Source: Microbacterium sp. KUDC0406
Lineage (GTDB): Bacteria > Actinomycetota > Actinomycetes > Actinomycetales > Microbacteriaceae
Assembly: GCF_021582875.1 (NCBI RefSeq)
Contig: NZ_CP091138.1
Location: forward strand, 3,534,001-3,598,000
DNA length: 64,000 bases
Direction: 5' to 3'
Each line of letters starts with the position of its first letter. Within the stretch, counting starts at the first letter, position 1. The translations under genes and the position numbers were made by a program. Positions 1,876-44,993 of this stretch are shown here, piece by piece. The notes beneath the pieces are model-generated. The model had not been told where the DNA came from, did not search any database, and was given only the letters and a program-made list of their open reading frames with translations.

Positions 1876-3810
1876 ATGCTGATCCGACGCGGGACTCTGC
1901 GCGAACTGTGGCGCCGACACGGTCGTCCGCACGGACGGCCGCGCCTGGCCGCGGCATCCGATCGTGAGTTCTGGCAGGGCGCGGATGCCGGCATCCGCGC
2001 GACGATCCTGGGCGAGTCCGACCGGATGCGGGCGGACGCCTGGCCGCAGCCGCTGCTGTCGCAGTGGGCGGCCTATGTCCGCACCGGAGACAGAGCCGCG
2101 TACGAGGCGGCGAACTTCACGCGCAATCGCCGCGTGCGCCTCGCCGTGCTCGCCGCCGCACTCGACGCGACCCCGAAGCGTCTCTCCGAGGCGGCGGATG
2201 GACTGTGGTTCAAGGCGGAACAGACCACCTGGTGCTGGCCCGCGCACGACGACGCGTTCGCGCGCGGACTGATGGTGCCCGACACGGCGCGCCCCTGCGT
2301 CGATCTCGGCGCCGGCGAGGATGCCGCGCTCATCGCCTGGTCGGTACTGGTGCTGGGGGAGCGGCTGGACGAGTTCTCGCCCGGACTGCGCGATCGTCTC
2401 GCGGCGGAGGTGCGCACGCGTGTGCTGGAGCCGTTCGTCGTCCGCCGCGACTGGCCGTGGGAGGGCACCGAGGAGCACGTCCACAACTGGGCCCCCTGGA
2501 TCCACAGCAACCTGCTGCCCGCCGCCGTCGCCTTCGCCGATGACGAGCTCCGCGCGCAGGTCTTCGCGCTGTGCGTGGACGGCCTGGACCGGTACCTCGC
2601 ACAGCTGCCCGCGGACGGGGCGATCGACGAGGGCTTCGGATACTGGTGGCAGGGAGCCGCACGCGCCTTCGACGCGCTGGCGCTGCTCGACGACCTCAGC
2701 GACGGCGCCATCCGTCGTGCGCTGCCGTCGCAGCTCGGCGGGCTCGCCGAACTCGCCCGGTTCCCGCAGCGGATGCGGCTCGGTCACGGCTGGTTCGCGA
2801 GCTTCTCCGATGCCGAGGCGCGTGCCGACGCGGGCGTCGCCTGGCACGCGCTCTTCCGCGCGGCCCGGCTGTGCGGGCTGGACGACGTGGCGGCGTTCGC
2901 CGCCGCCGAGCGCTCCGGGCCGCTGTGCGGCCTCGATGACGGCGTGCACGCCGGACTGGGGCGCATGCTCGCGGAGCTCGCAGACCGGGAATGGGCCGCC
3001 GCCGCGACCGTCTCCTTGGCTGCTGAGCCTGTCTCCTGGGTCGCTGAGCCTGTCTCCTGGGCCGCTGAGCCTGTCTCTGGGGTCGCTGAGCCTGTCGAAG
3101 CGCCGGAACCGGGGTCCCTCGACGGGCTCGGGACCCCGCATGCGTCGGAGCCGGTGCTGCTGAGCTCAATCGGTCTCGGGATCCGCTCCTCCGAGGGGAT
3201 CACCGTCGTCGCCAAGGGCGGACACAACGGCGAGAACCACAACCACAACGACCTCGGCTCCATCGCGGTCGCCGTCGGCGGCATCCCGCTGCTGCCCGAT
3301 CTGGGTCGGGCGGAGTACACCGCGCAGACGTTCTCCGATCGCCGGTGGGAGCTGTGGAACGTGCGCAGCGACTGGCACTCCGCGCCGATGCCGCGCGGGG
3401 CGCGTCAGCTGCCCGGCGCGCAGTGGCGGGCCGAGCTGACCGCGATCGAGGCCGGCTGGACGATCGAACTCGCCGACGCTTATCCGGAAGCGGACCCCTG
3501 GAAGCGCACCGTCGTGCTGGCTGACGGGATGCTCCGCGTTGTGGACGAGGGCGCGGCGGTCGCGGACCCCGCGACCCGCATCGTGGTCGTCTGCACCGGC
3601 GTGCCGGCATCCGTCGAAGGAGGCCTGCTCGTGCCGGGCAGGGAAGGGTCGCCGGACCTGCTGCTGACGCACGACACGGCAGGCGTCGAGATCGAGACCG
3701 TCGAGGTGGTCGATCCGCACCTGCGCACATCCTGGGGCGACACGGTGTCGCGCATCCTGTTCGCTCCCGAGTGCGGGAGCCGGTGGGAGATGAGAGGGGA
3801 GATCCGATGA
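1876..3810 (+). CDS. Heparinase II/III-like polysaccharide lyase
   Basis: 644 residues with no signal peptide. The N-terminal half (about 1-370) is helical, like the alpha/alpha toroid of heparinase II/III and alginate lyases. The C-terminal part begins after about residue 430 with GGHNGENHNHNDLG, the His/Asn-rich segment of the heparinase II/III domain, followed by DLGRAEYTAQTF. It likely cleaves imported uronic-acid-containing oligosaccharides. GGGAG precedes the ATG. Residues about 381-420 are a low-complexity run of AEPVS units encoded by an in-frame array of family B repeats, dropped between the two domains. The stop overlaps the next start (ATGA). Confidence 0.8.
   Translation: MLIRRGTLRELWRRHGRPHGRPRLAAASDREFWQGADAGIRATILGESDRMRADAWPQPLLSQWAAYVRTGDRAAYEAANFTRNRRVRLAVLAAALDATPKRLSEAADGLWFKAEQTTWCWPAHDDAFARGLMVPDTARPCVDLGAGEDAALIAWSVLVLGERLDEFSPGLRDRLAAEVRTRVLEPFVVRRDWPWEGTEEHVHNWAPWIHSNLLPAAVAFADDELRAQVFALCVDGLDRYLAQLPADGAIDEGFGYWWQGAARAFDALALLDDLSDGAIRRALPSQLGGLAELARFPQRMRLGHGWFASFSDAEARADAGVAWHALFRAARLCGLDDVAAFAAAERSGPLCGLDDGVHAGLGRMLAELADREWAAAATVSLAAEPVSWVAEPVSWAAEPVSGVAEPVEAPEPGSLDGLGTPHASEPVLLSSIGLGIRSSEGITVVAKGGHNGENHNHNDLGSIAVAVGGIPLLPDLGRAEYTAQTFSDRRWELWNVRSDWHSAPMPRGARQLPGAQWRAELTAIEAGWTIELADAYPEADPWKRTVVLADGMLRVVDEGAAVADPATRIVVVCTGVPASVEGGLLVPGREGSPDLLLTHDTAGVEIETVEVVDPHLRTSWGDTVSRILFAPECGSRWEMRGEIR
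3018..3135 (+). repeat. Family B repeat array inside the lyase gene
   Basis: Four tandem units of GCTGAGCCTGTC are followed by the full form GCTGAGCCTGTCGAAG and an inverted copy (CCCTCGACGGGCTCGGGACC). The array is translated in the AEPV frame, which has no stop codon, so it lengthens an interdomain linker without breaking the gene. Confidence 0.8.
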
Positions 3811-25258: not shown

Positions 25259-27017
25259 ATGGATGCCGAAGTCTTCTACGTGCTCGTGGGCGCCGTGCTG
25301 GTCGCGGCGATCGCCCGGTGGAAGGGCTGGCCGGCACCGCTGCTGGTCACTGTCGTAGCGCTCGCCGCATCTCTGATACCCGCCGTGCCCGACCTCGAGA
25401 TCGATGGTCACCTGCTGCTGATCCTGGTGCTGCCGCCGCTGCTGTACTCGGCGTCGCTGGATGTGTCGTTCGTGAGCTTCAAGCGCAGCCTGCCGCAGAT
25501 CCGTCGCCTCGGCATCGGGCTGGTCCTGGTCACGACCGTCGTCGTGGGGCTGATCGCGTGGTGGATCATGCCCTCGCTCACACTGTTCGGTGCGCTGCTG
25601 CTGGGTGCCATCGTCGCTCCGCCGGATGCCGTGTCCGCGGCGTCCATCGGCCGTAAACTCGGCCTGCCGCGTCGGATCATGTCGGTGCTGTCGGGCGAGA
25701 GCCTGATCAACGACGCCACCTCGCTGACGCTGTTCCGGGTCTTCTCGGCGGCAGCCCTCACCGGCGGCGAGCTTCAGTGTCTGGGGCGGCATCTGGCAGT
25801 TCGCCGTCGCGGTCGTCGTAGGCGTCGCGATCGGAACGGTGTTCGGTGCCGTGCTGCACCTGGTGCGCATGCGCAGCGACGACCCGGTGATCAACGGCAC
25901 GCTGGGACTGCTCGCCCCGTTCGGGGCCTATGCGATCGCCGAGCACCTGAACGGCTCCGGAGTGCTCGCGGTCGTCGCGATGGGGCTCTACGTCGGCTTC
26001 AACGCGCCGCGCACCAGCTACACGACCCGGCAGCAGGAGAAGCCGCTGTGGCTGTCGGCCGACTTCCTGCTGGAGTCGTTCGTGTTCGCCTACATCGGGC
26101 TGCAGCTGCCGCGGGCGATCGCCGAGCTCGGGTCGGGCAGCGTCGGCGGTGTGCTGTGGCTGTCGGCAGCAGTCCTCATCGCCACGCTGCTGGTGCGTCC
26201 CGCGTTCGTGTACCCGGCCAGCGCATGGGGGCAGTGGTGGCAGCGGCTCCGGATCCGCCGCTGGGAGCACGCCCTCGAGTCCGGCCAGGTCGCCGAGATG
26301 GAGCGCAGAGCGGATGCCGCCAAGGAGCGGGCTGATGCGGCCGCGGCCGCGAGCGGCCGCCCGGCCCGTCCGGTGCGTCCCGCCAAGTCGGCCGAGCAGA
26401 TCCGAGCCGAGCTCACCGAGCCCGCGCTGTCGTGGCGCGACAACGCAGTCGTCTCGTGGGCGGGAATGCGCGGGGTGGTCACCCTCGCCACCGCACTCGC
26501 GGCCGCCGACCTGGCAGGTCTCGAGCCGGATGCTGCGCACGCGATCGTCGTGGTCGCCTTCGTCGTCACGGTCGGGACACTGCTGCTGCAGGGGCTCACG
26601 CTGCCGTGGCTGATCCGCCGGCTCGGCGTGGCAGACGGTGCAGAGGCCGTCGAGGACGCCGCGGAGATCGCCGCGGTCCGCTCCCGCAGCCGCGAGGCGG
26701 GCAAGGCCTATCTGCGAGAGGTGCGGAAGAACTGGGCGCGGGAGCACGGGGAGGACAGGCTCCCTGCGTTCGACGCGTTCGCGCAGCGCCTGGTGCGAGT
26801 GGAGAACAACACGGATCAGGCGCAGGCGGAGGCGGCGCGCCCGACGCACGCCGAGTTCATGGCGCTCTCGAAGGGCTGGCTCGACGTTCGCCGGCAGCTG
26901 CTCATCTCGGAGCGGGACGCCGGCAACCTCAGCGAGGAGGTCATGCGGGAGCTGATCACCGCGATCGATGCCGAGGAGCTCGCCCTGGACACGAGGGCGG
27001 ACACCGCCGGGCGCTGA
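25259..27017 (+). CDS. Na+/H+ antiporter (CPA1/NhaP type), frameshifted
   Basis: About 585 residues after repair, with 11-12 membrane helices and a hydrophilic C-terminal domain. GAIVAPPDAVSA and GESLINDATS are the CPA1 ion-binding segments (the Asp in NDA). WAGMRGVVTLATALA is the conserved late helix. The frames part between 25763 and 25775 (one extra base or two missing), after ALTGG and before SVWGGIWQFAVAV. It exchanges Na+ or K+ for protons in pH homeostasis. The gene ends directly in family A repeats. Confidence 0.86.
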
Positions 27018-27272: not shown

Positions 27273-28758
27273 TCAGCTGTCAGCGCGCGGAGGCAGGCTC
27301 CGGCGGCATCCGCGGCCTCCTCGGCGGCTTCATGCTTCGCATCGGCGAGGGCGGCGTGCGCGGCGTCCTCGATGTCAGCGGCATCCGAGTCGTCCAGGTC
27401 CTCGGCGAACGGCAGGCCGTTGCGCGGCGCGTTGTAGAGGTCGAGGTCGAGTATGCCCTCTCGCTTAGCGACGATGGCCGGCACGAGCGCCTGGCCCGCG
27501 ACGTTGACCGCGGTGCGGCCCATGTCGAGGATCGGGTCGATCGCGAGCAGCAGGCCGACGCCCTCGAGCGGCAGGCCCAGGGTCGACAGGGTCAGCGTGA
27601 GCATCACGACCGCGCCGGTGGTGCCGGCCGTCGCCGCCGAGCCGACGACCGAGACGATCACGATCAGCAGGTACTGGAAGACGTTCAGATCGATGCCGAA
27701 GAACTGCGCGACGAAGATCGCGGCGATGGCCGGGTAGATCGCGGCGCAGCCGTCCATCTTGGTGGTGGCGCCGAGCGGCACGGCGAAGGAGGCGTAGGCA
27801 CGGGGCACGCCGAGGTTGCGCTCGGTGACGCGCTCGGTGAGCGGCAGAGTGCCGATCGAGGAGCGGCTGACGAAGCCGAGCTGCACGGCCGGCCACACAC
27901 CCGAGAAGTACTGCTTGATCGACAGGCCGTGCGTCTTGATCAGCACCGGGTAGACCACGAAGATCACCAGGGCGAGACCGATGTAGATCGCGCCGGCGAA
28001 CCAGGCGAGCGAGGTGAGCCGGTCCCAGCCGTACTTGATGACGGCCGATCCGATGAGGCCGAAGGTGCCGATCGGGGCGATGCGGATGATCCACCACAGC
28101 ACGCGCTGGATGACCTTCAGCAGCGACTCGGTGAAGGCGAGGAACGGCTCTGCCCTCTTCCGGCCTTCAGCGCGGCGATGCCGACGACGGCGGCGACGAC
28201 GATGACCTGGAGGATGTTGAAGCCGACGCTCGAGGAGAATGCGCCGGTCGTCGGGTCCTGTCCGGTCGAGACGCTCAGGCCGAGGAAGTTCTGCGGGATG
28301 AGGCCGAGCAGGAAGTTCCACCAGGTGCCGACCGCGTACGGGTCGCCGGTCTCGAGGTCCTGACCGGCGCGGGCACCGGGCTGGATCACGAGGCCGAGCA
28401 CGATGCCGATCGTCACGGCGATGAAAGCGGTGATCGCGAACCACAGGATGGTCTGGCCGGCCAGACGGGCCGCGTTCTGCACGCGGCGCAGGTTGGCGAT
28501 GCTCGCGACGATCGCCGTGAAGATCAGCGGCACGACCGCGGCCTTCAGGATCGTGACGTACGAGCTGCCGATCCTGTCCAGCGTGTCGGACAGGACTGTC
28601 GGGTTCGTGGCGCTCGCGCCGAGGCCGCGGCCGATGAGGCCGGCCACGATGCCGAGGACCAGGGCTGCGATGATCTGGAAGCCGAACGAGGTCAGCAGCT
28701 TGCGGACGGGACCGCGGGTGTCTGGCGCCTTCTCGCGGCGGGTCGTCGTGGTGCTCAT
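27273..28758 (-). CDS. Dicarboxylate/amino acid:cation symporter (DAACS), frameshifted
   Basis: About 495 residues after repair. MSTTTTRREK at 28758 has GGAG upstream. The glutamate/aspartate carrier core is clear: KAAVVPLIFTAIVASIANL, SRSSIGTLPLT (serine-rich re-entrant loop), GATTKMDGCAA (the NMDGT-like signature, here KMDGC) and DPILDMGRTAVNV. It imports dicarboxylates or acidic amino acids with Na+ or H+. One missing G at 28153-28155 joins the two halves. A second single-base loss near 27290 is inferred, because the correct frame then stops at 27273, just before the terminator. Confidence 0.85.
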
Positions 28759-29376: not shown

Positions 29377-29652
29377 TCAGGCGCTCCTTCGCCGGGCATC
29401 CGGCTTCGGCGCGGGGAGCATCTCGACGGTGACGCCGTCGAGCAGGAATCCGGGTTCGACGCGGAGCGCGTCCGCGATGCGGATGAGGGTCGGGATGTTC
29501 ATCAGCGAGCGCCCCTTCTCATAGCCGCGGATGTTGGCCGAGTCGATCTGGCTGAGCACGGCCAGTTCGTCCTGGGTGATGCCTCGTCTCACGCGTTCCG
29601 CCGAGATCAGCTCGCCGATGCGGGCGGCGGCTGGAGAGGGGACGCGGGGCAC
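29377..29652 (-). CDS. XRE-family regulator of the restriction-modification island
   Basis: 91 residues from a GTG start. It has a Cro/CI helix-turn-helix: IGELISAERVRRGITQDELAVLSQIDSANIRGYEKGRSLMNIPTLIRIADAL in helices (ITQDELAVLSQ, then SANIRGYEKG as recognition region). Small XRE proteins divergent from methylase genes often act as controller proteins. The intervening 87 bases carry several palindromes (29685-29724), a plausible operator for it. Confidence 0.83.
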   Translation of the reverse strand: MPRVPSPAAARIGELISAERVRRGITQDELAVLSQIDSANIRGYEKGRSLMNIPTLIRIADALRVEPGFLLDGVTVEMLPAPKPDARRRSA

Positions 29653-29684
29653 TCATCAAGCGTCATGAATGTCCGCGACTTGTG

Positions 29685-29724
29685 CCAGGGTTAACAAACC
29701 CGGGTACTAGTACCACCCTGGGTT
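29685..29724. promoter_or_regulatory. Compound palindromic operator between XRE and methylase genes
   Basis: Perfect palindrome GGTACTAGTACC at 29703-29714, flanked by GGGTTAACAAACCC (29688-29701) and spanned by CCAGGG/CCCTGG (29685-29690/29716-29721). The AT-rich core differs from its surroundings. GGGAGGG before the ATG at 29740 is the ribosome site. Confidence 0.6.
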
Positions 29725-29739
29725 CGCCTGGGAGGGTGG

Positions 29740-30402
29740 ATGGCAGAGAAGCTGGTCAAGTCGCGGCAGCGAGTGGCTGATCACGGTGAGGTGTTCACGC
29801 CTCGGTGGCTCGTCGACGACATGCTCGACCTGGTCAAGCGAGAGGCCGAGCGGATCGACTCGCGGTTCCTGGAGCCGGCCTGCGGATCGGGGAACTTCCT
29901 CGTTCCGGTGCTTGAGCGCAAGCTCGCCGCCGTCGAGGCTCGCTACGGCAGGAGCGACTTCGAGAAGCGGCATTACGCGCTCTTCGCGCTGATGTGCGTC
30001 TATGGCATCGAGTTGCTCCCGGATAACGCTGCCGAGTGTCGCGAGAACCTGCAGGGTACTTTCGCTCGGGTGCTGAAGTTGGATGCCGATGATGCTCTGC
30101 TGCTCGCGGCACGTGCGCTGCTCGAGGCGAACATCGTGCAGGGCGATGCGCTGGCGATGACGGACGCCAAGGGCGAACCGATCGTCTTCCCCGAGTGGGG
30201 GTACCTCGGGCGCGGCAAGTATCAGCGCCGTGACTTCCGCTTCGACGCGTTGACCCAGCGGTCCGCGGCCTCGGGGACTCTCTTCGACGCCTTCGAAGAG
30301 CACGAGATCTTCACGCCGGTGCGCACGTATGCGGCCATGTCCGTCGACCAGATCGCACACCTCTCGGTCGTTGAGCGAGCGAAGCGAGACGAAACGCCAT
30401 GA
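29740..30402 (+). CDS. Class I SAM-dependent DNA methylase-like protein, short
   Basis: 220 residues. HGEVFTPRWLVDDMLDLV (residues about 16-33) and the SAM-binding motif I FLEPACGSGNFLVPVL (42-57) place it with the N6-adenine methylases of type I/ISP/Eco57I systems. It has no NPPY motif IV and is far shorter than a full methylase, so it may be a SAM-binding half that works with the next protein or a regulator. The last residues (SVVERAKRDETP) come from a family A repeat. The stop overlaps the next start (ATGA). Confidence 0.75.
   Translation: MAEKLVKSRQRVADHGEVFTPRWLVDDMLDLVKREAERIDSRFLEPACGSGNFLVPVLERKLAAVEARYGRSDFEKRHYALFALMCVYGIELLPDNAAECRENLQGTFARVLKLDADDALLLAARALLEANIVQGDALAMTDAKGEPIVFPEWGYLGRGKYQRRDFRFDALTQRSAASGTLFDAFEEHEIFTPVRTYAAMSVDQIAHLSVVERAKRDETP
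30366..30397 (+). repeat. Family A repeat forming the 3' end of the methylase gene
   Basis: GGTCGTTGAGCGAGCG ... GAGACGAAACGC is read in frame to within one codon of the stop. The ATGA coupling to the next gene is kept right after it. Confidence 0.85.
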
Positions 30403-32093
30403 CGACACCGGTTCTCGAAGGCAAGGCCAGCTTTGCGCTGCGCGGTCACAACCCCGACGTTCTCACCTGCATCGCGAACCTCTCGAACGACGAGGTGTTC
30501 ACTCCGCCGGAGTTCGCGAACAAGATGCTCGACACCCTCGAGCAGGCGTGGGCGCAGTCGAATGACGGCGCATCGATCTGGGCCGACCCGAGCGTCACCT
30601 TCCTCGACCCGTTCACGAAGTCAGGGGTCTTCCTTCGAGAGATCACGCGCCGGCTCACGCTCGGGCTCGAGGATGCGATCCCAGATCTGGCAGATCGCGT
30701 CGATCACATCCTGACGAAACAGGTCTTCGGCATCGGGATCACCCGGCTCACTTCGCTGCTCGCGCGGCGCAGCGTGTACTGCTCGAAGGATGCGATCGGC
30801 AAGCACTCCATCGCGAGGAGCTTCGACCGGGCTTGGGGCAACATCTGGTTCGAACGGACCGAGCACACCTGGGTGGGTCGCAAGAAGGTGCGACGCGCTC
30901 ATCCGCTCACCGGCGACGAAGAGCTGATCGAGGCGGACGGCACAGGGCGATGCGAGTTCTGTGGCGCAGTCGAGTCGGAGTACGGCCGAAACTCTGAACT
31001 CGAGAGCCACGCGTACGCGCTCATCCATTCACATGACATCAAGGCTCGAGTCACTGAGCTGTTCGGAGCAGACATGCAGTTCGACGTCATCATCGGGAAC
31101 CCGCCGTACCAGCTCAGCGACGGCGGCTTCGGAACTTCTGCTGCCCCGATCTATCAGCTCTTCGTTGAGAAGGCACTCGAACTCGACCCGCGCTACGGCG
31201 TGTTCGTCACGCCGTCCCGGTGGTTCGCGGGTGGCAAGGGGCTCGACGCATATCGCGAAAGAATGCTCAGCGACCACCGCCTGCACGACATCGTCGACTA
31301 CCCCAAGCTCTATGAGGCTTTCCCAGGGGTGAAGATCCGTGGCGGTGTCTCCTACTTCCTCTGGGATCGGGAGTACGACGGACCTTGCACCATCCAAACG
31401 ATGTGGGATGGTCAGCCCGTCGGAGAGCCGGTCGCGAGGTACCTCGATCAATTCGACGTCCTTGTGCGATGGAACGCGGCGGTTCCGATTCTGGAGAAGG
31501 TTCGAGCGAAGGGTGAGCCGACGCTCGATGCGCGAGTGTCCACAGGCAAGCCGTTCGGCCTTCGTACGTTCGTGCATGGCGCGACGACATCAGAGGGGAT
31601 TGCCGATCCAGTGCAGTTGTACGGCTCCAGAAAGGTCAGCTGGATCGGTCGGGAAGACGTGCCGGGGAACATCGAATGGGTCGACCAGTGGAAGGTATTG
31701 ATGACCGCCGTCCAGGGGACCAGTGCAGCGGTGGAGACGAAGTTCCTCTCTCGACCGATCGTCGCTGGCCCGGGAACTGCGTGCACCGAGACCTATCTCG
31801 TGGCAGGTCTCTTCGATTCAGAAGGAGCAGCACTGCGGCTCTCTTCGTACCTCAGCACCCGCTTCGTGCGCTTTCTAGTATCGCTTCGCAAGTCCACGCA
31901 GCACGCGACGCGAGATGTATATGCGTTCGTGCCGGATGTTCCTCTGGACCGTGTCTGGACGGACGAATCGCTATATGCACGCTATGGCCTGATTGCCGAA
32001 GAGATCGCGTTCATCGAGTCTCAGGTCGCCGCCCATGACTCCTCGTCGCACGAGTCGCGCGAGGACGAGCAGGCCGACGATGCCTCGGCCTGA
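30399..32093 (+). CDS. Eco57I-type N6-adenine DNA methyltransferase
   Basis: 564 residues. Residues about 28-90 repeat the EVFTPPEFANKML theme, with an odd motif I (FLDPFTKSGVFLREI). The catalytic motif IV is FDVIIGNPPYQLSDGG (NPPY at 234-237). A zinc-like CEFC pair sits at 185-188 and a target-recognition region fills the C-terminal half. It should methylate adenine N6 in DNA, protecting the host or marking DNA for the partner proteins. Codon use is less GC-biased than in neighbouring genes, which suggests transfer. It is coupled to the genes on both sides. Confidence 0.85.
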   Translation: MTTPVLEGKASFALRGHNPDVLTCIANLSNDEVFTPPEFANKMLDTLEQAWAQSNDGASIWADPSVTFLDPFTKSGVFLREITRRLTLGLEDAIPDLADRVDHILTKQVFGIGITRLTSLLARRSVYCSKDAIGKHSIARSFDRAWGNIWFERTEHTWVGRKKVRRAHPLTGDEELIEADGTGRCEFCGAVESEYGRNSELESHAYALIHSHDIKARVTELFGADMQFDVIIGNPPYQLSDGGFGTSAAPIYQLFVEKALELDPRYGVFVTPSRWFAGGKGLDAYRERMLSDHRLHDIVDYPKLYEAFPGVKIRGGVSYFLWDREYDGPCTIQTMWDGQPVGEPVARYLDQFDVLVRWNAAVPILEKVRAKGEPTLDARVSTGKPFGLRTFVHGATTSEGIADPVQLYGSRKVSWIGREDVPGNIEWVDQWKVLMTAVQGTSAAVETKFLSRPIVAGPGTACTETYLVAGLFDSEGAALRLSSYLSTRFVRFLVSLRKSTQHATRDVYAFVPDVPLDRVWTDESLYARYGLIAEEIAFIESQVAAHDSSSHESREDEQADDASA

Positions 32094-34613
32094 GTCGGAA
32101 CTACTCCCCCGAAGCCGGAGTCCCGCCTTCGCATCTACGCGTACTCGATCGATGACGAGGCACACGCCGGCCTGCTCAAGGTCGGACAGACGACGCAGAA
32201 TGTGAAGGTCCGCGTTGCACAGCAGGTGAAGACCGCCGCCATTCAGAACTACGAGATCGTGCTCGATGAACCGGCCGATCGTCACGACGGCACGACCTTC
32301 AGCGACCACGACGTCCGCGCGCGGCTCAAGTCCAAGGGCTTCACCAATCCGACGCTCGAGTGGATGAAGTGTTCGCTCGATGACGTCCGCACGGCGATCG
32401 CCGAGTTGCGTACCGGGCAGCAGTTCGAAGGCACGCATCACCTGGACTTCCCGCCGCGCGCGGAGCAGCAGGCCGCGGTCGACAAGACCCTCGGCTATTA
32501 CGAGTCGAGGTGGACCGAGGACGCCGATGCGGTTCCGGAGTTCCTCTGGAACGCGAAGATGCGCTTCGGCAAGACCTTCACCACCTATCAGCTCGCCAAG
32601 AAGCTCCGCGCGAAGCGCGTATTGGTCGTGACTTTCAAACCTGCGGTCGAGGATGCCTGGGAGACCGACCTCAGATCACACGTCGACTTCGACGGCTGGC
32701 AGTACATCTCGAAGTCCACCGGTGGGGACCCGGCAGAAGTCGATCCTCAGCATCCGCTCGTCTTCTTCGGCTCTTTCCAGGACCTCATGGGCCGCGATGC
32801 GGCCGGCAACTTCAAGGCGAAGCATGCCTGGCTCACCGAGCTCACTTGGGATCTCGTCGTCTTCGACGAGTATCACTTCGGCGCCTGGCGGGATGCGGCG
32901 AAGGAGCTGTTCGAGGGCGAGGACGACAAGGCGAAGAAGAAGGCGACCGACGACGAATTCGGCGCCGATCTCGAGAAGTTCGCCCAGGAACGCGAGGAGC
33001 AGGGCCTCGACGAGGACGACTTCGTGCCGATCAAAGCATCCGCCTACCTCTATCTCTCCGGCACCCCCTTCAAGGTTCTGAACGAAGGGCGGTTCATCGA
33101 GGAGCAGATCTACAACTGGACGTACACCGACGAGCAGAGGGCGAAGGCGGAGTTCGCGGCGCAGCATCCGGATCTCCCGAACCCGTACGCATCGTTGCCG
33201 GAGATGCGACTGCTGACCTATCAGATGCCTGAAGAGCTGCTCGCGATCGCCAGCCAGGGCGAGTTCGACGAGTTCGATCTGAATGCCTTCTTCGAGGCGA
33301 AGGGGACCGGCGCTGAAGCCGAGTTCGTGCACAAGACCGATGTGCAGAAGTGGCTCGACATCATCCGCGGCAACTACGCGCCCACCCAGGTCGACGCATT
33401 GAAGGCCGGCGCCCGCCCGCCGTTCCCGTACTCGGACACGCGCCTGCTCCCGTACCTGCAGCATTCGTTGTGGATGCTGCCGTACCGTGCGTCCTGCGAT
33501 GCCATGGCGAACCTGCTGGCAGAACAGCACAACGTGTTCTGGCACGACTACACGGTAGTCAACGTGTCCGCCCCGGGCGTCGGCGTCGGTCTCGCGGCGC
33601 TACCGCCGGTGCGGGATGCTATCGGCAACGGGCACGATACGAAGACCATCACGCTGACGGTCGGCAAGCTCACGACTGGCGTCACCGTGCCGCAGTGGTC
33701 GTCGATCCTGATGCTGCGCAATCTTCACGCGCCGGAGACGTACTTCCAGGCCGCTTTCCGGGTGCAGTCGCCGTGGACCATCCGCAATCCTGAAGGTGAC
33801 GACCCTTCGCGGATCGAGATCCTCAAGCCGGTATGCTTCGTGTTCGACTTCGCGCCGACCAGGGCGCTCCGGCAGATCAGCGAGTACGGTCGGGGGCTCG
33901 CACCAGAGAATCCGAACCCCGAGCGCGCGGTCGAGGAACTGGTGTCCTTCCTGCCGGTGCTCGCCTACGACGGCTCGCACATGACTCAGGTGGATGCTGC
34001 CGGCATTCTCGATATCGCCATGTCGGGTACCTCTGCGACGCTGCTGGCCCGCAAATGGGAGTCCGCGGTGCTCGTCAACGTCGACAACCTGACGCTGAAG
34101 AAGATCATGGCGTCGGACGCGGCGATGAATGCGGTGATGAACATCGAAGGCTTCCGTGCGCTGGGTGCAAGCGTGTTCGAGACCGTCGTCAACAAGAGCG
34201 AGGCCGTGTCGAAGACGAAGAAGGAGAAGGGCGACGAGATCACGCCCACCGAGAAGAAGGAGCTCTCGGAGGAGGAGAAGGAGTACAAGTCCAAGCGGAA
34301 GCAGATCCAGGAGAAGCTGATCAAGTTCGCCACCCGCATCCCGGCGTTCATGTATCTCACCGACTACCGCGAGAACACGCTCTACGACGTGATCACCAAG
34401 ATTGAGCCCGACCTCTTCAAGGCCGTCACGGGACTCACCGTCGAGGACTTCAACCTGCTGGTCGGGCTCGGCGTGTTCAACGCCGTGCACATGAACCAGG
34501 CCGTGTTCGCTTTCCGTAGGTACGAGGACTCGTCGCTCTCATACACAGGCCTTGAGTCGCACAAGGGCCTGAGGCGGTACGGCTTGTACGACACCGTCGT
34601 AGCGGTCGACTGA
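32080..34613 (+). CDS. GIY-YIG nuclease/SF2 helicase fusion, frameshifted near start
   Basis: About 844 residues after repair. An ATG at 32080 overlaps the methylase end. One missing C in the C5 run 32106-32110 joins it to the main frame, which otherwise has no start before GTG 32202. The recovered N-terminus RIYAYSIDDEAHAGLLKVGQT looks like a T5orf172/GIY-YIG nuclease. The helicase core has MRFGKT (Walker A, about 161), VVFDEYHFGAW (DEYH box, about 263), YLYLSGTPFK (motif III) and TTGVTVPQWSSILML ... FRVQSP (motifs V-VI). A Lys/Glu-rich stretch follows near 700-745. It is the likely translocating or cleaving subunit of the island. Confidence 0.82.
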
Positions 34614-35695
34614 TGACCGTCATTCTGATTCATCGCGTTGCCATGTCGGAAGCTGCGGGGTTGCGACCCGTCGGAGTCTGGGCGATCGACGATGATCATG
34701 AGCGCCACCACTATCCGGACGGCCGCGAGAAGTACGAGTCGCGTGGGTTCAAGGCTCTGTTTCATCGTCCCGATATGCCGGCTACGCAGTGGGCGCTCTA
34801 CAAGGCGGACACGTCGCCGAACTGGGAGATCCATCAGGCGGAGGCGTCGTTCGATTTCGGGATGGAACTCGACCTCGAACAGATCCTGGCCGATGCCGAG
34901 GTGAAAGCTGCGGCCGCGAGTGCGGCGAAGCAGGCCAAGGCGCGTCACCAGGCACGAGAAGCTGCGACGCAGGAGGTTGTCGACGCGGCCGGCTGGGGCG
35001 CCCCGCAGCGTGTGATCGCTCACTCATGGTGGGTCGCTTCGGAGCTTGCGCGTCGCCACCCTGAGCTCCTGGTGTACGAGGAACACCCGGGAGGCGGCAT
35101 GTACGACGTGCTCGCCGTCGCACCGGTTCGACACTTCGCTCCGAACGCGCCGGTCGGGTTGGCAGCTGCGATGCTCAATCGCGTCGGAACGCTTCAGATC
35201 CATGCCGGAGGGGAGGCGACCGTCGTCTCCGACTGGGCTACAGCGTTGACGGCGCCGGCGCCGTTCGACACCGTTCTGCGGTTGGAGGCTGCTGCAGGGT
35301 GGAGCTCACCCGCCAGCACACCGAGCGCGACGCGACGGAGCCTCGCATACCGGTTCCTCGCTGCCTCGCTGAACGCGTTCGTCAATGACCGTCACGACTG
35401 GGATGCTCGATGCGAACTGCTGGACTCGTCGGACGGCATCGAACGAAACGGCTATCTCAAGGACTTTCCTGAGGCTCTTGCCGACCTGGACTTGATCCCG
35501 CGCATAGGCATTTTCGGCGAACCCCACAGCCATTTCTGGGCACTCATGCGCGACGGTCAGGCGATCGCGATCGTCTCCATCGACGGCCGCATCTACCCGC
35601 GAACCGGGGCCTCTTCCGATCTTCTCGTTGAATACGAGAAGCACGGGCGGCGGATCCGACGCCTGGCGACGGCGCGGCTTCGGGACTGGCTCTGA
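34613..35695 (+). CDS. Unrecognised protein of the defence island
   Basis: 360 residues; I do not recognise a family. The N-terminus (GVWAIDDDHERHHYPDG, then FDFGMELDLEQILADAE) is followed by an Ala/Lys/Gln-rich helix (KAAAASAAKQAKARHQAREAA, seen in part) that may be a coiled-coil linker. A mixed alpha/beta C-terminal half follows, with HSWWVASELARRHPELLVYEEHPGGGMYDVLAV, here read as HSWWVASEL and YEEHPGGGMYDVL. The E-x-H-P-G-G and Y-D-V pattern could be a nuclease-like E...D centre, but this is a guess. It overlaps the helicase stop by one base (TGATG), so it belongs to the same operon. Confidence 0.7.
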   Translation: MTVILIHRVAMSEAAGLRPVGVWAIDDDHERHHYPDGREKYESRGFKALFHRPDMPATQWALYKADTSPNWEIHQAEASFDFGMELDLEQILADAEVKAAAASAAKQAKARHQAREAATQEVVDAAGWGAPQRVIAHSWWVASELARRHPELLVYEEHPGGGMYDVLAVAPVRHFAPNAPVGLAAAMLNRVGTLQIHAGGEATVVSDWATALTAPAPFDTVLRLEAAAGWSSPASTPSATRRSLAYRFLAASLNAFVNDRHDWDARCELLDSSDGIERNGYLKDFPEALADLDLIPRIGIFGEPHSHFWALMRDGQAIAIVSIDGRIYPRTGASSDLLVEYEKHGRRIRRLATARLRDWL

Positions 35696-35718
35696 GAATC
35701 GCGCTACTGCCACATCTG

Positions 35719-35737
35719 CTGCAACATGATGTTGCAG
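35719..35737. promoter_or_regulatory. Inverted repeat before the DUF262 gene
   Basis: CTGCAACATGATGTTGCAG has perfect 9-base arms around a single G, with an outer CTACTG/CAGTAG pair. It is AT-richer than its surroundings and lies 61 bases before the start at 35798. It could be an operator or a weak terminator. Confidence 0.5.
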
Positions 35738-35797
35738 TAGGTGTCGCAGCTCCAGCAGCCAAGGGCCCTCAGTCGACCCGGATCAGGAGATCACAGT

Positions 35798-37948
35798 ATG
35801 AAGACCGACGTCGTCAAGCCGCAGGGCATCTTCTTCAACCCGGTGCGCATGGTCGTGCCCCTGTTCCAGCGGCCGTACGTGTGGTCCAAGGAGACGCAGT
35901 GGGAGCCGCTGTGGCAGGACATCGTCCGCCTGATCGAGGTCATCGAGCACCATGACCCCGCAGCGACCCACTTTCTCGGTGCGATCGTCATTCAGCAGGT
36001 TCCGGTGGGCCTGGGCAGCCTGCCCGCCTGGAACGTGATCGACGGCCAGCAGCGGCTGACGACCCTGCAGCTGCTGCTCGACGCATTGCATTCCGAGCTC
36101 GAGCGTCGCGGTTTCACGGGTCAGGCCAGCCGGGTGAGCTCGCTCGTGGAGAACCCGCCGGAGCACTGCGACGGTGCCGACGACCGGTTCAAGCTGTGGC
36201 CGACCAATCGCGATCGGCAGAGCTTCTCGACGGTGATGTCGGCGCCGACGCCCGTCGATTACGCGTCGCTCGATCCGACCCGGCTCCGCGATGCGCACCG
36301 CTACTTCGCCGAGTCGATCACTGCATGGCTCGGTGAAGGCGGGGATGCCGAGCGGCGTGCGCGCGTGCTCGTTGCGACGGTGACCGATCGGCTGGAGATC
36401 GCCAGCATCAGCCTGGACGCCAATGAAGACGCTCAGGCGATCTTCGAGACGCTGAACGCCCGCGGCACGCCACTGTCGGCTGCAGATCTCATCAAGAACT
36501 TTGTCTTCCAGCAGATCGAGGGCACCGCTGCCGAGCGCGCATACTTCGAGTACTGGGCGGACTTCGAGACGCCATGGTGGGAGACCGAAGTCACCACCGG
36601 ACGAGTGAAGCACTCGCGGTCTTCGCTGTTCCTGTGGCAGTGGCTCGTCGCTCGCACGCTGAACGACTTCCCGATCCGTGAAGTCTTCACCCAGTTCAAG
36701 CACTATGTGAACACCGTCGCCAAGGACGTCGCCCTGCTGCTGCCGCAGATCAAGCGTGCCGCCGACCGGTACCGGGCGCTGGTCGAGGGGGCTGAGCGTC
36801 AGAGCGGGCCGCTCAGCCGCGATGAGCTGTTCGGCTACCGCATCGGCGTGCTGGACTCCGAGGTCGCGCGACCGTTGCTGATCTGGCTGGACGAGCCGGA
36901 ACAGGAGGGCATCGCAGATGCTGATCGCCGACGCATCCTCGAAGTGCTGGAGAGCTGGTTCGTGCGCAGGGCGCTGGTGAAGGTGCAGTCCCAGGGGTCG
37001 AACCGCTTCATCGTCGACCTGCTGAAGTCTGTGGATGCGCGGCCCAAGGACGAGGTCGCGGCGGCCGTGGAGGAGTTTCTTGTCGCGAGCCAGAGCTCGG
37101 TCGGTTACTGGCCGGGCGATGACGAGGTGCGCGAAGCGCTCACCGGTGCGCCGGCGTACTGGCGCTATCTGCGGGGCAGGCTGCGCATGGTGCTCGAGGC
37201 TCTGGAGGACCACCGGCGCGGCTATCCGGACGGGCAGCGCCTGACGATGGGGCCGATCGTGCGCAGCAAGGCGACGATCGAGCATCTGATGCCGCAGGAG
37301 TGGCGCAAGAACTGGGACACCGGTCTCGATGAGGAGCAGGAGGCGGCTCGCGGTCGTGCGATCCAGCAGCTGGGAAACCTGACGATTGTCACGCAGACGC
37401 TGAACAGCAGAGTCTCGAACGGCGGGTGGGAGGCGAAGCGCTCTCACTTCCGCAAGTCGGACGACGTGCTTCTCACCCGCGACGCGATCGAACTCGCCGA
37501 CGACAACGGCGGATGGGATGAGTCGGCGATCGAGGCGCGCACCGAACAGCTGATCGACGAGATCCTCGCTGTGTGGCCTGCCCCCGATGGACACCGGAGA
37601 CAGCAGGAGGATGCCGCAGATGCTGTGCCGTCGGCGGCGATCGATCTCGCGCAACTCGTGTCATCCGGGTGGTTGGAGGCCGGCACGGAGCTCACCTCGC
37701 GCGAGGGCATGTACGGCGGAGCGCGTGCGGCGGTCGCGCAGGACGGGCGCGTGTACATCGGCGATGTCGCCTATGACACGCCCTCCGGAGCGGGCCGGGC
37801 CGTCGTAGGGCGAGGCGTCAAAGGCTGGCACTTCTGGCGTCTGGTCGCCACCGGGGATTCGCTCGCCGACATCCGGGATCGGTACATCGCGAGCCTGGGT
37901 GACGTCGGTGCGGATCTCGCGATCGACGACGAGGATGAGACCCGATGA
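35798..37948 (+). CDS. DUF262-DUF1524-RAMA protein (GmrSD-like, modification-dependent nuclease)
   Basis: 716 residues. ATG 35798 is chosen because AGGAG lies 9 bases upstream. Order: DUF262 with VPLFQRPYVW (about 22-31) and the ParB/GmrS-like NTPase motif IDGQQRLTTLQLLL (about 81-94); DUF1524/HNH nuclease with IEHLMPQEW (about 494) and LGNLTIVTQTLN ... SNGGW ... SHF; then a C-terminal RAMA-type domain (about 615-697: SSGWLEAGTELTS, DGRVYIGDVAYDTPSGAGRAVVG, GWHFWRL). GmrSD enzymes cut modified phage DNA, and RAMA is thought to read modified bases. It follows the methylase/helicase genes and overlaps the next gene by ATGA. Confidence 0.85.
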   Translation: MKTDVVKPQGIFFNPVRMVVPLFQRPYVWSKETQWEPLWQDIVRLIEVIEHHDPAATHFLGAIVIQQVPVGLGSLPAWNVIDGQQRLTTLQLLLDALHSELERRGFTGQASRVSSLVENPPEHCDGADDRFKLWPTNRDRQSFSTVMSAPTPVDYASLDPTRLRDAHRYFAESITAWLGEGGDAERRARVLVATVTDRLEIASISLDANEDAQAIFETLNARGTPLSAADLIKNFVFQQIEGTAAERAYFEYWADFETPWWETEVTTGRVKHSRSSLFLWQWLVARTLNDFPIREVFTQFKHYVNTVAKDVALLLPQIKRAADRYRALVEGAERQSGPLSRDELFGYRIGVLDSEVARPLLIWLDEPEQEGIADADRRRILEVLESWFVRRALVKVQSQGSNRFIVDLLKSVDARPKDEVAAAVEEFLVASQSSVGYWPGDDEVREALTGAPAYWRYLRGRLRMVLEALEDHRRGYPDGQRLTMGPIVRSKATIEHLMPQEWRKNWDTGLDEEQEAARGRAIQQLGNLTIVTQTLNSRVSNGGWEAKRSHFRKSDDVLLTRDAIELADDNGGWDESAIEARTEQLIDEILAVWPAPDGHRRQQEDAADAVPSAAIDLAQLVSSGWLEAGTELTSREGMYGGARAAVAQDGRVYIGDVAYDTPSGAGRAVVGRGVKGWHFWRLVATGDSLADIRDRYIASLGDVGADLAIDDEDETR

Positions 37949-39177
37949 CTCCCACCCCCGACCTGACCGCACTCGCCACCCTCTGGACCACCGCCCTCGA
38001 CGATGAGCTCCCCGCCGCGCGTGCCCTGCGCCGCGAGCTGCACGCCGACCCGCGGGTGTCGGGCCAGGAGGCGCCCACTCGCGACCGCATCGTTGCTGCG
38101 CTGAGCGACGTCCTGCCCTTCGAGCCGATGACGGATGCCGGTGCCGTGGGGCGCCTGGGCCCGGCATCCGGCCCGTCGATCGCGCTGCGCGCAGAACTGG
38201 ACGCTCTCCCCGTCACAGAGCAGACCGGGGCATCCTTCGCCTCGCAGAACGGGGCGATGCACGCCTGCGGGCACGACGTGCACCAGGCCGCTCTCGTCGC
38301 TCTGATGCGCGCGGCGCGGCGCATCGACCTCCCGTTCGGCCTGGTCGGACTGCTCCAGCCGCGCGAGGAGACCTCTCCTCCGGGAGCGCGGGACATGATC
38401 GAGGCCGGTGTCATCGACCAGCACAGCATCGCGCACGTCATCGGTGCGCACGTGCATCCCGCAGTCGCGACGGGCGCGATCGCCTCGGCCGGAGGGTTCA
38501 TCAACGCCGCCGCGGACGAGATCGACATCCGCATCAACGGCCGAGGCGGGCACGGCGCCTATCCGCACCTGGCCGGCGACACCGTCGCGGCCATCGCGCA
38601 CATCGCACTCGGCATCCCCGAAGTCGTCCGCCGCACGGTCAGCCCGGTGCGGCCGGCGCTGATCAGCGTCGGCACGTTGAACGCGGGTCTCGGCGTCGCC
38701 AACGTCCTTCCGGCCCACGCGCACATCCGCGCCACGATGCGCACCACGGACATCGGTGACCGCGCCGCGCTCTTCGCCGCCGTCAGCACCATGGCCGAGC
38801 GCACCGCCGAGGCCTACGGCACGACCGCGACGGTCACGCTCGTCGAGGGGCAGCCGGCGCTCATCAACGACCACGACCTGGCATTCGGCATCAACGGATG
38901 GCTCACGCGGCTCGGCATCCCCGGTGACGATCCGATGCGGTCGCTCGGCGCGGACGACTTCGCCTACTTCTGCGAGGCTGTCCCCTCTGCCATGCTGTTC
39001 GTCGGCGTCGAGACCGCCGGGGAGGATCCGCAGCCCACTCTGCATCACGCGCGGTTCCTGCCCGGCGAGAGCGCTGTCGATCTCACCGCACGCGCACTGC
39101 TGGCCGGTTATCTTGCTGCGGCAGAGGGGCTGCTGCAGTCCGGCGCGACGCCCTCGCCGGCGTGGCGAGGGCGCTGA
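37945..39177 (+). CDS. M20-family amidohydrolase
   Basis: 410 residues. The M20D metal ligands are visible: HACGHDVH (Cys/His), QPREE (catalytic Glu pair), GAHVHP and the late LHHARFLP. The dimerisation domain contains GRGGHGAYPHLAGD. Members hydrolyse N-acyl or N-aminoacyl groups (amino-acid conjugates, hippurate, indole-3-acetyl amino acids). The ATG overlaps the stop of the DUF262 gene by four bases, so it is translated from the same message; whether this is functional or fortuitous is unclear. Confidence 0.88.
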   Translation: MTPTPDLTALATLWTTALDDELPAARALRRELHADPRVSGQEAPTRDRIVAALSDVLPFEPMTDAGAVGRLGPASGPSIALRAELDALPVTEQTGASFASQNGAMHACGHDVHQAALVALMRAARRIDLPFGLVGLLQPREETSPPGARDMIEAGVIDQHSIAHVIGAHVHPAVATGAIASAGGFINAAADEIDIRINGRGGHGAYPHLAGDTVAAIAHIALGIPEVVRRTVSPVRPALISVGTLNAGLGVANVLPAHAHIRATMRTTDIGDRAALFAAVSTMAERTAEAYGTTATVTLVEGQPALINDHDLAFGINGWLTRLGIPGDDPMRSLGADDFAYFCEAVPSAMLFVGVETAGEDPQPTLHHARFLPGESAVDLTARALLAGYLAAAEGLLQSGATPSPAWRGR

Positions 39178-39347
39178 CCATCCAACGGGCGCGGGTGATG
39201 CGGCAATAGATTCCAATGTCGGAGGCCAGTGCGACCATGAACTATGGCACTTTTCACCGATGTTGCGTCGCTGATCCCCGGCGCCGACCGCGCTGAACGC
39301 CGACCGCACGGGGCGCCGGCGCCGATGCCGATACCGGACGCCGATTC

Positions 39348-39587
39348 TCACCCGCGCGGCGCCAGCACCAGCAGCTCACCCACCTCGCACTTCAGCGCAT
39401 CGCAGATCGCGCGCAGAGTCGAGTAGCGGATGGCCCGGGCCCGGTCGTTCTTCAGCACTGACAGGTTCACCACGCTCACGCCCACGCGCGCGCTCAGCTC
39501 AGTCAGCGTCATCCCGCGCGCGGCGAGCAGTTCGTCGAGCCGGCAGTGGATGCCGGTGTCCTCGTCGTCGGTGTCGGCAGGACTCAT
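39348..39587 (-). CDS. XRE/YozG-like transcriptional regulator
   Basis: 79 residues. The helix-turn-helix is RLDELLAARGMTLTELSARVGVSVVNLSVLKNDRARAIRYSTL in helices (MTLTELSARVGVS, then NLSVLKNDRA, the N-L-S recognition pattern of YozG). YozG-type regulators are usually paired with DUF2975 membrane proteins, as here. It is the last gene of the operon, with a 4-base ATGA overlap. It probably represses the operon through the repeats at 42289-42333. Confidence 0.88.
   Translation of the reverse strand: MSPADTDDEDTGIHCRLDELLAARGMTLTELSARVGVSVVNLSVLKNDRARAIRYSTLRAICDALKCEVGELLVLAPRG

Positions 39588-42466: not shown

Positions 42467-44993
<2,527 letters not shown>

Follow-up and report, generated by a model that had tools for sequence, protein, structure and literature searches.

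A probable three-gene ATP-dependent restriction core with variable rider genes in Microbacterium sp. KUDC0406

Gene content of the island

The 64,000-nucleotide (nt) stretch of the Microbacterium sp. KUDC0406 chromosome analyzed here, referred to below as the window, carries at positions 29377-37948 an island composed of a divergent XRE-family regulator gene and five co-directional genes that we designate M1, M2, HEL, TYC and GMR (Table 1). The island is GC-poor (approximately 0.62, against 0.70 around it) and belongs to a 3.61-Mb genome assembled as one contig. Our analysis indicates that it probably encodes a three-gene ATP-dependent restriction-modification (R-M) core, consisting of M1, M2 and HEL, beside the XRE regulator and two rider genes.

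The five co-directional genes are closely spaced: M1 and M2 share 4 nt, HEL and TYC share 1 nt, and 102 nt separate TYC from GMR. An earlier note on this DNA, made from the sequence alone, had described the regulator as diverging from this run within a multi-gene defense locus. The coordinates of the open reading frames (ORFs) confirm the arrangement, Pfam recovers the families the note had named for XRE (HTH_3), M2 (Eco57I) and GMR (DUF262-DUF1524-RAMA), and a restriction or defense locus is supported. The product of the fourth gene in the run, called an unknown protein in that note, is a member of the TY-Chap2 family (PF22553; E = 2.4e-54).

Table 1. Features of the island, with positions counted from the first letter of the window.
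Feature	Position	Strand	Support
XRE-family regulator (HTH_3)	29377..29652	-	Pfam HTH_3 36.9 bits, cut-off 23
Candidate XRE operator, palindrome GGTACTAGTACC	29703..29714	.	function inferred
M1, truncated methylase-like subunit, S-adenosylmethionine (SAM)-binding half only (motif I present, NPPY absent)	29740..30402	+	
M2, gamma-type N6-adenine DNA methylase with C-terminal target-recognition domain; motif I is DPFTKSG	30399..32093	+	
First half of GIY-YIG (T5orf172), in frame with HEL, lacking a start codon	32094..32201	+	
HEL, SF2 translocase part of a GIY-YIG-SF2 subunit, as annotated	32202..34613	+	ResIII PF04851 27.4 bits, cut-off 22.5
TYC, TY-Chap2 (predicted peptide-binding chaperone) rider	34613..35695	+	PF22553 184.9 bits, cut-off 27
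Imperfect 43-nt palindrome between TYC and GMR	35707..35749	.	21-nt arms, 86% complementary, 1-nt centre
GMR, GmrSD_N (DUF262) - GmrSD_C (DUF1524 HNH) - RAMA, type IV-like rider nuclease	35798..37948	+	Pfam

A conserved core with partitioned methylase motifs

HEL was matched in 25 of 198 genomes of the genus, including one remnant and fused forms. Among 20 neighborhoods fetched besides that of the window, 17 have the order M1-M2-HEL (two with M1 interrupted and three with M2 broken), and three carry a diverged form in which M1 is followed by a fusion between HEL and the first half of M2 and then by a 344-amino-acid (aa) NPPY protein. A wider survey took the best 80 of 591 matches in named species genomes and scored gene order wherever HEL had 2.6 kb or more of sequence before it, which was the case at 60 loci. 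M1 and M2 lie upstream of HEL on the same strand in 58 of these, spread over many phyla; of the five-gene order for which the earlier note had suggested such a search, this three-gene part is kept and the full set is not. The arrangement is tight in 46 of the 58 ordered loci and includes gaps or extra genes in the other 12, and M1 and M2 overlap by 4 nt in 31 of 45 loci measured. The seven gap ORFs scanned between core genes encode KilA-N, DUF1016/YhcG nuclease, Fic, RhuM, M78 peptidase, DUF4411 and AlbA_2 proteins, cargo of types also carried by type I operons. At least 8000 proteins score with one HEL relative, all at E up to 0.001, and identity is 77-92% among the 120 matches listed; many of the core-bearing genomes are metagenome bins.

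Fused forms of the core are also found on plasmids. In Enterococcus (L210), M1 precedes a single 1445-aa protein that combines a GIY-YIG-like part, read by eye and not matched by Pfam, with SF2 and M2 including its recognition region. A similar fused protein on a Pediococcus plasmid (L211) stands beside a different partner of 307 aa (2188-3108). This partner lacks the usual M1 motif I by the pattern used, and is possibly a different type of M1.

The GIY-YIG/SF2 helicase proposed in the earlier note holds in part: ResIII is found in HEL and GIY-YIG in its relatives, but the whole GIY-YIG domain does not fall within the annotated window ORF. HEL relatives are mostly 840-860 aa in length with a GIY-YIG/T5orf172-like N-terminus, a domain that Pfam calls in relative L054 (4.8e-7, above cut-off). 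Of 71 relatives' ORFs, 66 exceed 840 aa. All of these contain the GIY-YIG elements Tyr, K-hydrophobic-G-x-T and Arg as well as Glu-Trp in the expected stretch (47/66 by the stricter pattern EW[MFL]), completing the Y / K-hydrophobic-G / R / E signature. The SF2 motifs GKT, DExH and SGTPF likewise occur in all 66, and QxxFRxQ in 61. The ATG used by these relatives overlaps the end of M2, most commonly by 8 nt (26 of 52 measured); in the window the same ATG lies in another frame, and the 108-nt gap between M2 and HEL exists because the HEL start is shifted. Three neighboring genes are similarly split, NhaP (25259-27017) and ClpC (42467-44975) over two frames and DctA (27402-28752) over three, which suggests indel errors in the assembly. 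An assembly indel is therefore the likelier cause of the HEL shift as well, and probably accounts for it.

The most striking part of the core, and one worth an experiment, is the partition of methylase motifs between M1 and M2. M1 is a 220-aa protein that barely passes the Pfam cut-off for N6_Mtase (21.1 versus 20.4 bits), and M2 is assigned to Eco57I (7.3e-32). In an alignment of 45 M1 sequences, Gly49 and Gly51 of motif I are kept in all, and [NDS]PP[YFWH] is found in none. The 49 aligned M2 sequences all contain NPP[YFWH] and none has a canonical DPxxGxG; Lys74 is invariant where the first Gly is expected. The same division extends to all M1 ORFs found (GxG in 55/55, NPP in 0/55) and all M2 ORFs found (NPP in 53/54, DPxxKSG in 51/54), where three short ORFs and a KTG variant account for the exceptions. 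The M2 part of the fused genus form has ADLFSTAG as its motif I in all four cases. Of six other N6-methylases that we fetched, five have both motifs on one chain and the sixth was missed by the motif I pattern. In comparisons with CamA, the M1 model matches just the SAM-binding half, and the M2 model matches nearly the whole length.

Across residues 301-480, M2 sequences form two approximate classes, and these do not track the remainder of the protein. Compared with the window, M2 of L045 is 52% identical over residues 1-160 and 78% over residues 301-400, M2 of L031 is 86% and 38% identical over the same segments, and that of L057 is intermediate. The independence of the two classes from the rest of M2 looks like target-recognition-domain exchange. 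M2 also contains invariant residues Cys185, Cys188 and His210 ahead of its NPPY motif; these look like a zinc-binding insert.

The domain order of the fused forms, the tight coupling of the genes and the exchange of recognition domains suggest that the core may work in the manner of type ISP and type I enzymes. The steps that we infer, from complex formation and methylation to translocation, cutting and the RAMA target, would proceed as follows. M1 and M2 would bind together at a site that the M2 recognition domain selects and would methylate adenine there, with M2 supplying NPPY catalysis and M1 acting as a SAM-binding-half partner. At an unmethylated site, HEL joined to M1-M2 would translocate on ATP, and its N-terminal GIY-YIG domain would cut as in type ISP or type I systems. 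The functions that the earlier note gave to these proteins, methylases that mark host DNA and a helicase that translocates, are thus plausible. GMR may form a second, GmrSD-type layer that probably cuts phage-modified DNA escaping the first, and TYC is a predicted chaperone. It is possible, if on balance doubtful, that M1 and M2 constitute an obligate composite methylase, with the SAM motif and NPPY on separate chains and both subunits needed for marking and for cutting. Equally tentative is the proposal that these composite-methylase partners are pseudo-homologous subunits of a very large restriction family. If the motif partition does reflect divided cofactor and catalytic sites, it would represent an unusual DNA methylase design with a built-in safety lock.

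Damaged loci bear on the proposed mode of restriction. HEL is open where M1 is disrupted (G094 and G121) and where M2 is disrupted (G099, whose pieces lack NPPY, and G057, with a frame break), a pattern that fits a nuclease predicted to need both methylase subunits; in G182, M2 and HEL are both broken. Several observations nevertheless count against an active restriction core. These disrupted loci, G182 among them, may be dead relics, and some of the breaks may be assembly errors. M2 activity is not assured because the canonical SAM motif is absent, and in the present assembly the GIY-YIG domain starts out of frame. M1 went undetected at two loci, L074 and L112, in the latter of which M2 begins 233 bases from the contig end. 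Finally, the nearest tested system in the literature consulted, DnmA-YeeB-YeeC of Bacillus subtilis, gave no restriction of the phages tried, according to the accessible portion of that report (PMC9973331).

Rider genes and alternative readings

GMR contains GmrSD_N, GmrSD_C and RAMA by Pfam, together with the motifs QR, DGQQR, FxxxN, EHxxP, GNL and NSRVSN. With up to five candidates per genome scored in the genus and up to two in the family, relatives at 64-68% identity were found seven times in 198 genus genomes, not counting the window, and twice elsewhere in the family (398 genomes). All nine of these nearest relatives found adjoin ATP-dependent restriction genes. Five lie within the core operon, between M1 and M2 in G138, G374 and G507 (with 4-nt overlaps) and in G182, and between M2 and HEL in G099. 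The remaining four are located 1.1 kb from a diverged core (G064), in an XRE-GMR-type ISP arrangement (G026), as the first gene of a type I operon (G148), and approximately 0.5 kb away from an oppositely oriented type I operon (G049). This pattern suggests one RAMA nuclease plugging into three ATP-dependent restriction types. Of the 8 genus genomes with GMR at 64% identity or more, 5 also have the core, compared with 19 of the remaining 190 (Fisher p = 7.6e-4; 0.004 when the window's genome is left out).

We also examined 12 relatives of lower identity (59-60% in the genus search, 49-56% in the family search). Two adjoin type I genes (L247 and L248), one has a core 2.9 kb away (L241), and the other nine have neither the core nor type I or type ISP genes nearby by BLAST labels, with L202 and L203 labeled for core genes only. 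One of these nine, L246, has a methylase-like ORF with NPPY approximately 5.7 kb away. More distant DUF262 proteins follow HEL in L037 and L041.

TYC is a rarer rider than GMR and a predicted chaperone, TY-Chap2 having been predicted to bind peptides in the part of the source available to us (PMC9503650). Besides the window, it follows HEL in one of the 20 other genus loci fetched (L032; genome G038). TYC was found in six other genus genomes, one by a weak partial match; elsewhere it adjoins a UDG-superfamily protein (L204) or DUF1643 (L206).

These distributions bear on the claim of the earlier note that the five genes form one system. In such a system, M1 and M2 would mark DNA, the RAMA domain of GMR would read the marks in an SspE-like gating, HEL would move DNA to GMR and TYC would assemble the complex. 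The GMR genes inserted within five core operons and the co-occurrence of GMR and core in the genus speak for this. However, apart from the window just 3 of the 17 genus loci with an unfused core contain GMR (65-68% identity), at positions that differ from the window's; its close relatives are also found as riders of type I and type ISP genes; and, the window aside, a single fetched genus locus has TYC next to M1-M2-HEL. The claim of a five-gene system is too broad because GMR and TYC are variable riders on an M1-M2-HEL core that is constant over many phyla, and we consider an integrated system quite unlikely. A related view, very unlikely in our estimation, would make GMR the main effector, switched on by host N6-methyladenine, with the core mainly supplying the activating mark. 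It draws on the nine nearest relatives, all adjoining restriction genes with N6-methylases of three kinds, but has to contend with the nine lower-identity relatives that have neither the core nor labeled type I or type ISP genes nearby and with the nuclease domain that HEL itself carries in relatives.

A decayed or orphan system, in which M1 and M2 are left in this strain as an epigenetic methylase and restriction has been lost, would explain the out-of-frame HEL start, the broken M1, M2 or HEL genes of other genus loci, and would have the B. subtilis DnmA precedent (PMC9973331, as far as its accessible text goes). On the other hand, the splitting of ClpC, DctA and NhaP points to assembly indels, and the remainder of HEL keeps an open, conserved frame, as do the other genes; we consider decay unlikely. 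We favor an R-M core that acts with variable riders.

Several further features of the locus were noted. The palindrome GGTACTAGTACC is a candidate operator of the XRE regulator on sequence grounds. The XRE gene is beside M1 in 8 of 17 unfused genus loci (tblastn), GGGTACNNGTAC falls within the XRE-side gap in 10 of 15 loci examined, and GTACNNGTAC has two occurrences in the window. A repeat, GAGCGAGCGNAGCGAGNCGAAAC (up to 2 mismatches), is present in six copies in the window, including one at 30373-30395, against a mean of 0 in shuffled sequences. One copy codes for the C-terminus of M1, and peptide stretches resembling the product of the repeat sit inside M1 of L031 and L036.

M1 is in addition a target of mobile elements. 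In G094 (L208/L038) and G121 (L209/L043), it is broken at the same codons by elements of approximately 21 and 36 kb. The 31-base pattern at the left end of the element occurs at eight places in 7 of 198 genus genomes, with a ninth in G118, and a similar pattern at three further places in 2 of 396 genomes of the order (other insertion loci, L214-L222 and L249-L251). Two of the 12 places, both in G698, share identical 3-kb surroundings, lie close to the two termini of a single contig and could represent the same site. At all 12, the upstream frame stops at an apparent motif I start ([DEG]PA in 11, DTA in one), and to the right of the element the motif resumes as ACGSGNFL in both cases checked. 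The interrupted frames include some that resemble type I HsdM, type ISP-like and MmeI-like methylases. The right end of the element carries three large genes, one encoding a tyrosine integrase by Pfam and two without a Pfam match. We read the element as inserting exactly into motif I, behind the DPA/EPA codons, of apparent N6 methylases of several restriction types, M1 included. Elements with serine-integrase triplets insert in Streptococcus hsdM, as described in the accessible part of PMC4701971.

Relation to known systems

The domain order of type ISP enzymes (nuclease, SF2, gamma-methyltransferase, recognition domain) is seen in the fused L210 protein, where the GIY-YIG-like part was read by eye; the window has separate genes in a different order. 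The locus further differs from LlaGI and LlaBIII in having GIY-YIG rather than Mrr, separate chains and the extra M1. Mrr, the ISP coupler PF22240 and the ISP C-terminal domain PF18135 were absent from M1, M2 and HEL in Pfam searches at E up to 1, and all three were called by Pfam in L199. We rejected type ISP membership for want of Mrr, coupler or ISP domain. Type I R-M systems have a separate HsdS specificity subunit, and none of the eight proteins encoded at 29377-39587 has a Pfam match to Methylase_S. The type I system PacII (M1M2S) resembles the locus in its two methylase-like subunits, but in PacII each M subunit has its own catalytic motif, NPPF or NPPY, whereas M1 of the locus has neither and no S gene is present (PMC9613975, in the text accessible).

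We scanned six proteins with PADLOC, retaining for M1 and GMR the best 25 of 38 and 25 of 40 matches. The type IIG model PDLC03626 (REase_MTase_IIG, 1359 aa) matches M2 (8.7e-39), HEL (2.2e-31) and a fused relative (7.6e-41), and does not match M1; it describes a single chain, a layout that M2 and HEL do not share. Among the matches retained for the six proteins, BREX PglZ and BrxC were not seen, the only likeness being a weak one of M1 to PglX (3.6e-4), nor was any DISARM-named model, HEL matching PDLC03626 only. The earlier note could assign the set to no standard type I, III, BREX or DISARM layout, and counted homologous clusters with an established name as grounds for dropping its reading. 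Those grounds hold by half: in our searches the cluster is named nowhere, but HEL and M2 both match the type IIG model.

No description of the M1-M2-HEL layout was found in the literature searched, a search that left subscription papers and REBASE outside; this includes the accessible parts of PMC7251935, PMC10853773, PMC1564403, PMC12839542, PMC7563491, PMC8713573, PMC3874165, PMC9503650, PMC9973331, PMC11411939, PMC4701971 and PMC9613975. The core is widespread in many phyla, yet its layout is without description in that literature. DnmA-YeeB-YeeC likewise combines an adenine methylase, an SF2 helicase and T5orf172, but has one MmeI-like methylase, a helicase separate from T5orf172 and, in the available text, no M1-like subunit described (PMC9973331).

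For GMR, the relevant comparisons are with GmrSD type IV enzymes, whose DUF262 (QR/DGQQR/FxxxN) and DUF1524 His-Me finger it shares, and with TgvAB, which likewise places a GmrSD-family nuclease inside a restriction operon. TgvAB consists of two proteins, and GMR of one chain with a C-terminal RAMA domain. In the accessible text, TgvAB is embedded in a Vibrio cholerae type I operon and provides complementary restriction of modified phage DNA (PMC11411939). Extended by analogy to GMR, such a role is a better precedent than the reading of M1/M2 marks. Together, these comparisons define a real and widespread restriction core, partly covered by existing type IIG profiles, on which the riders vary.

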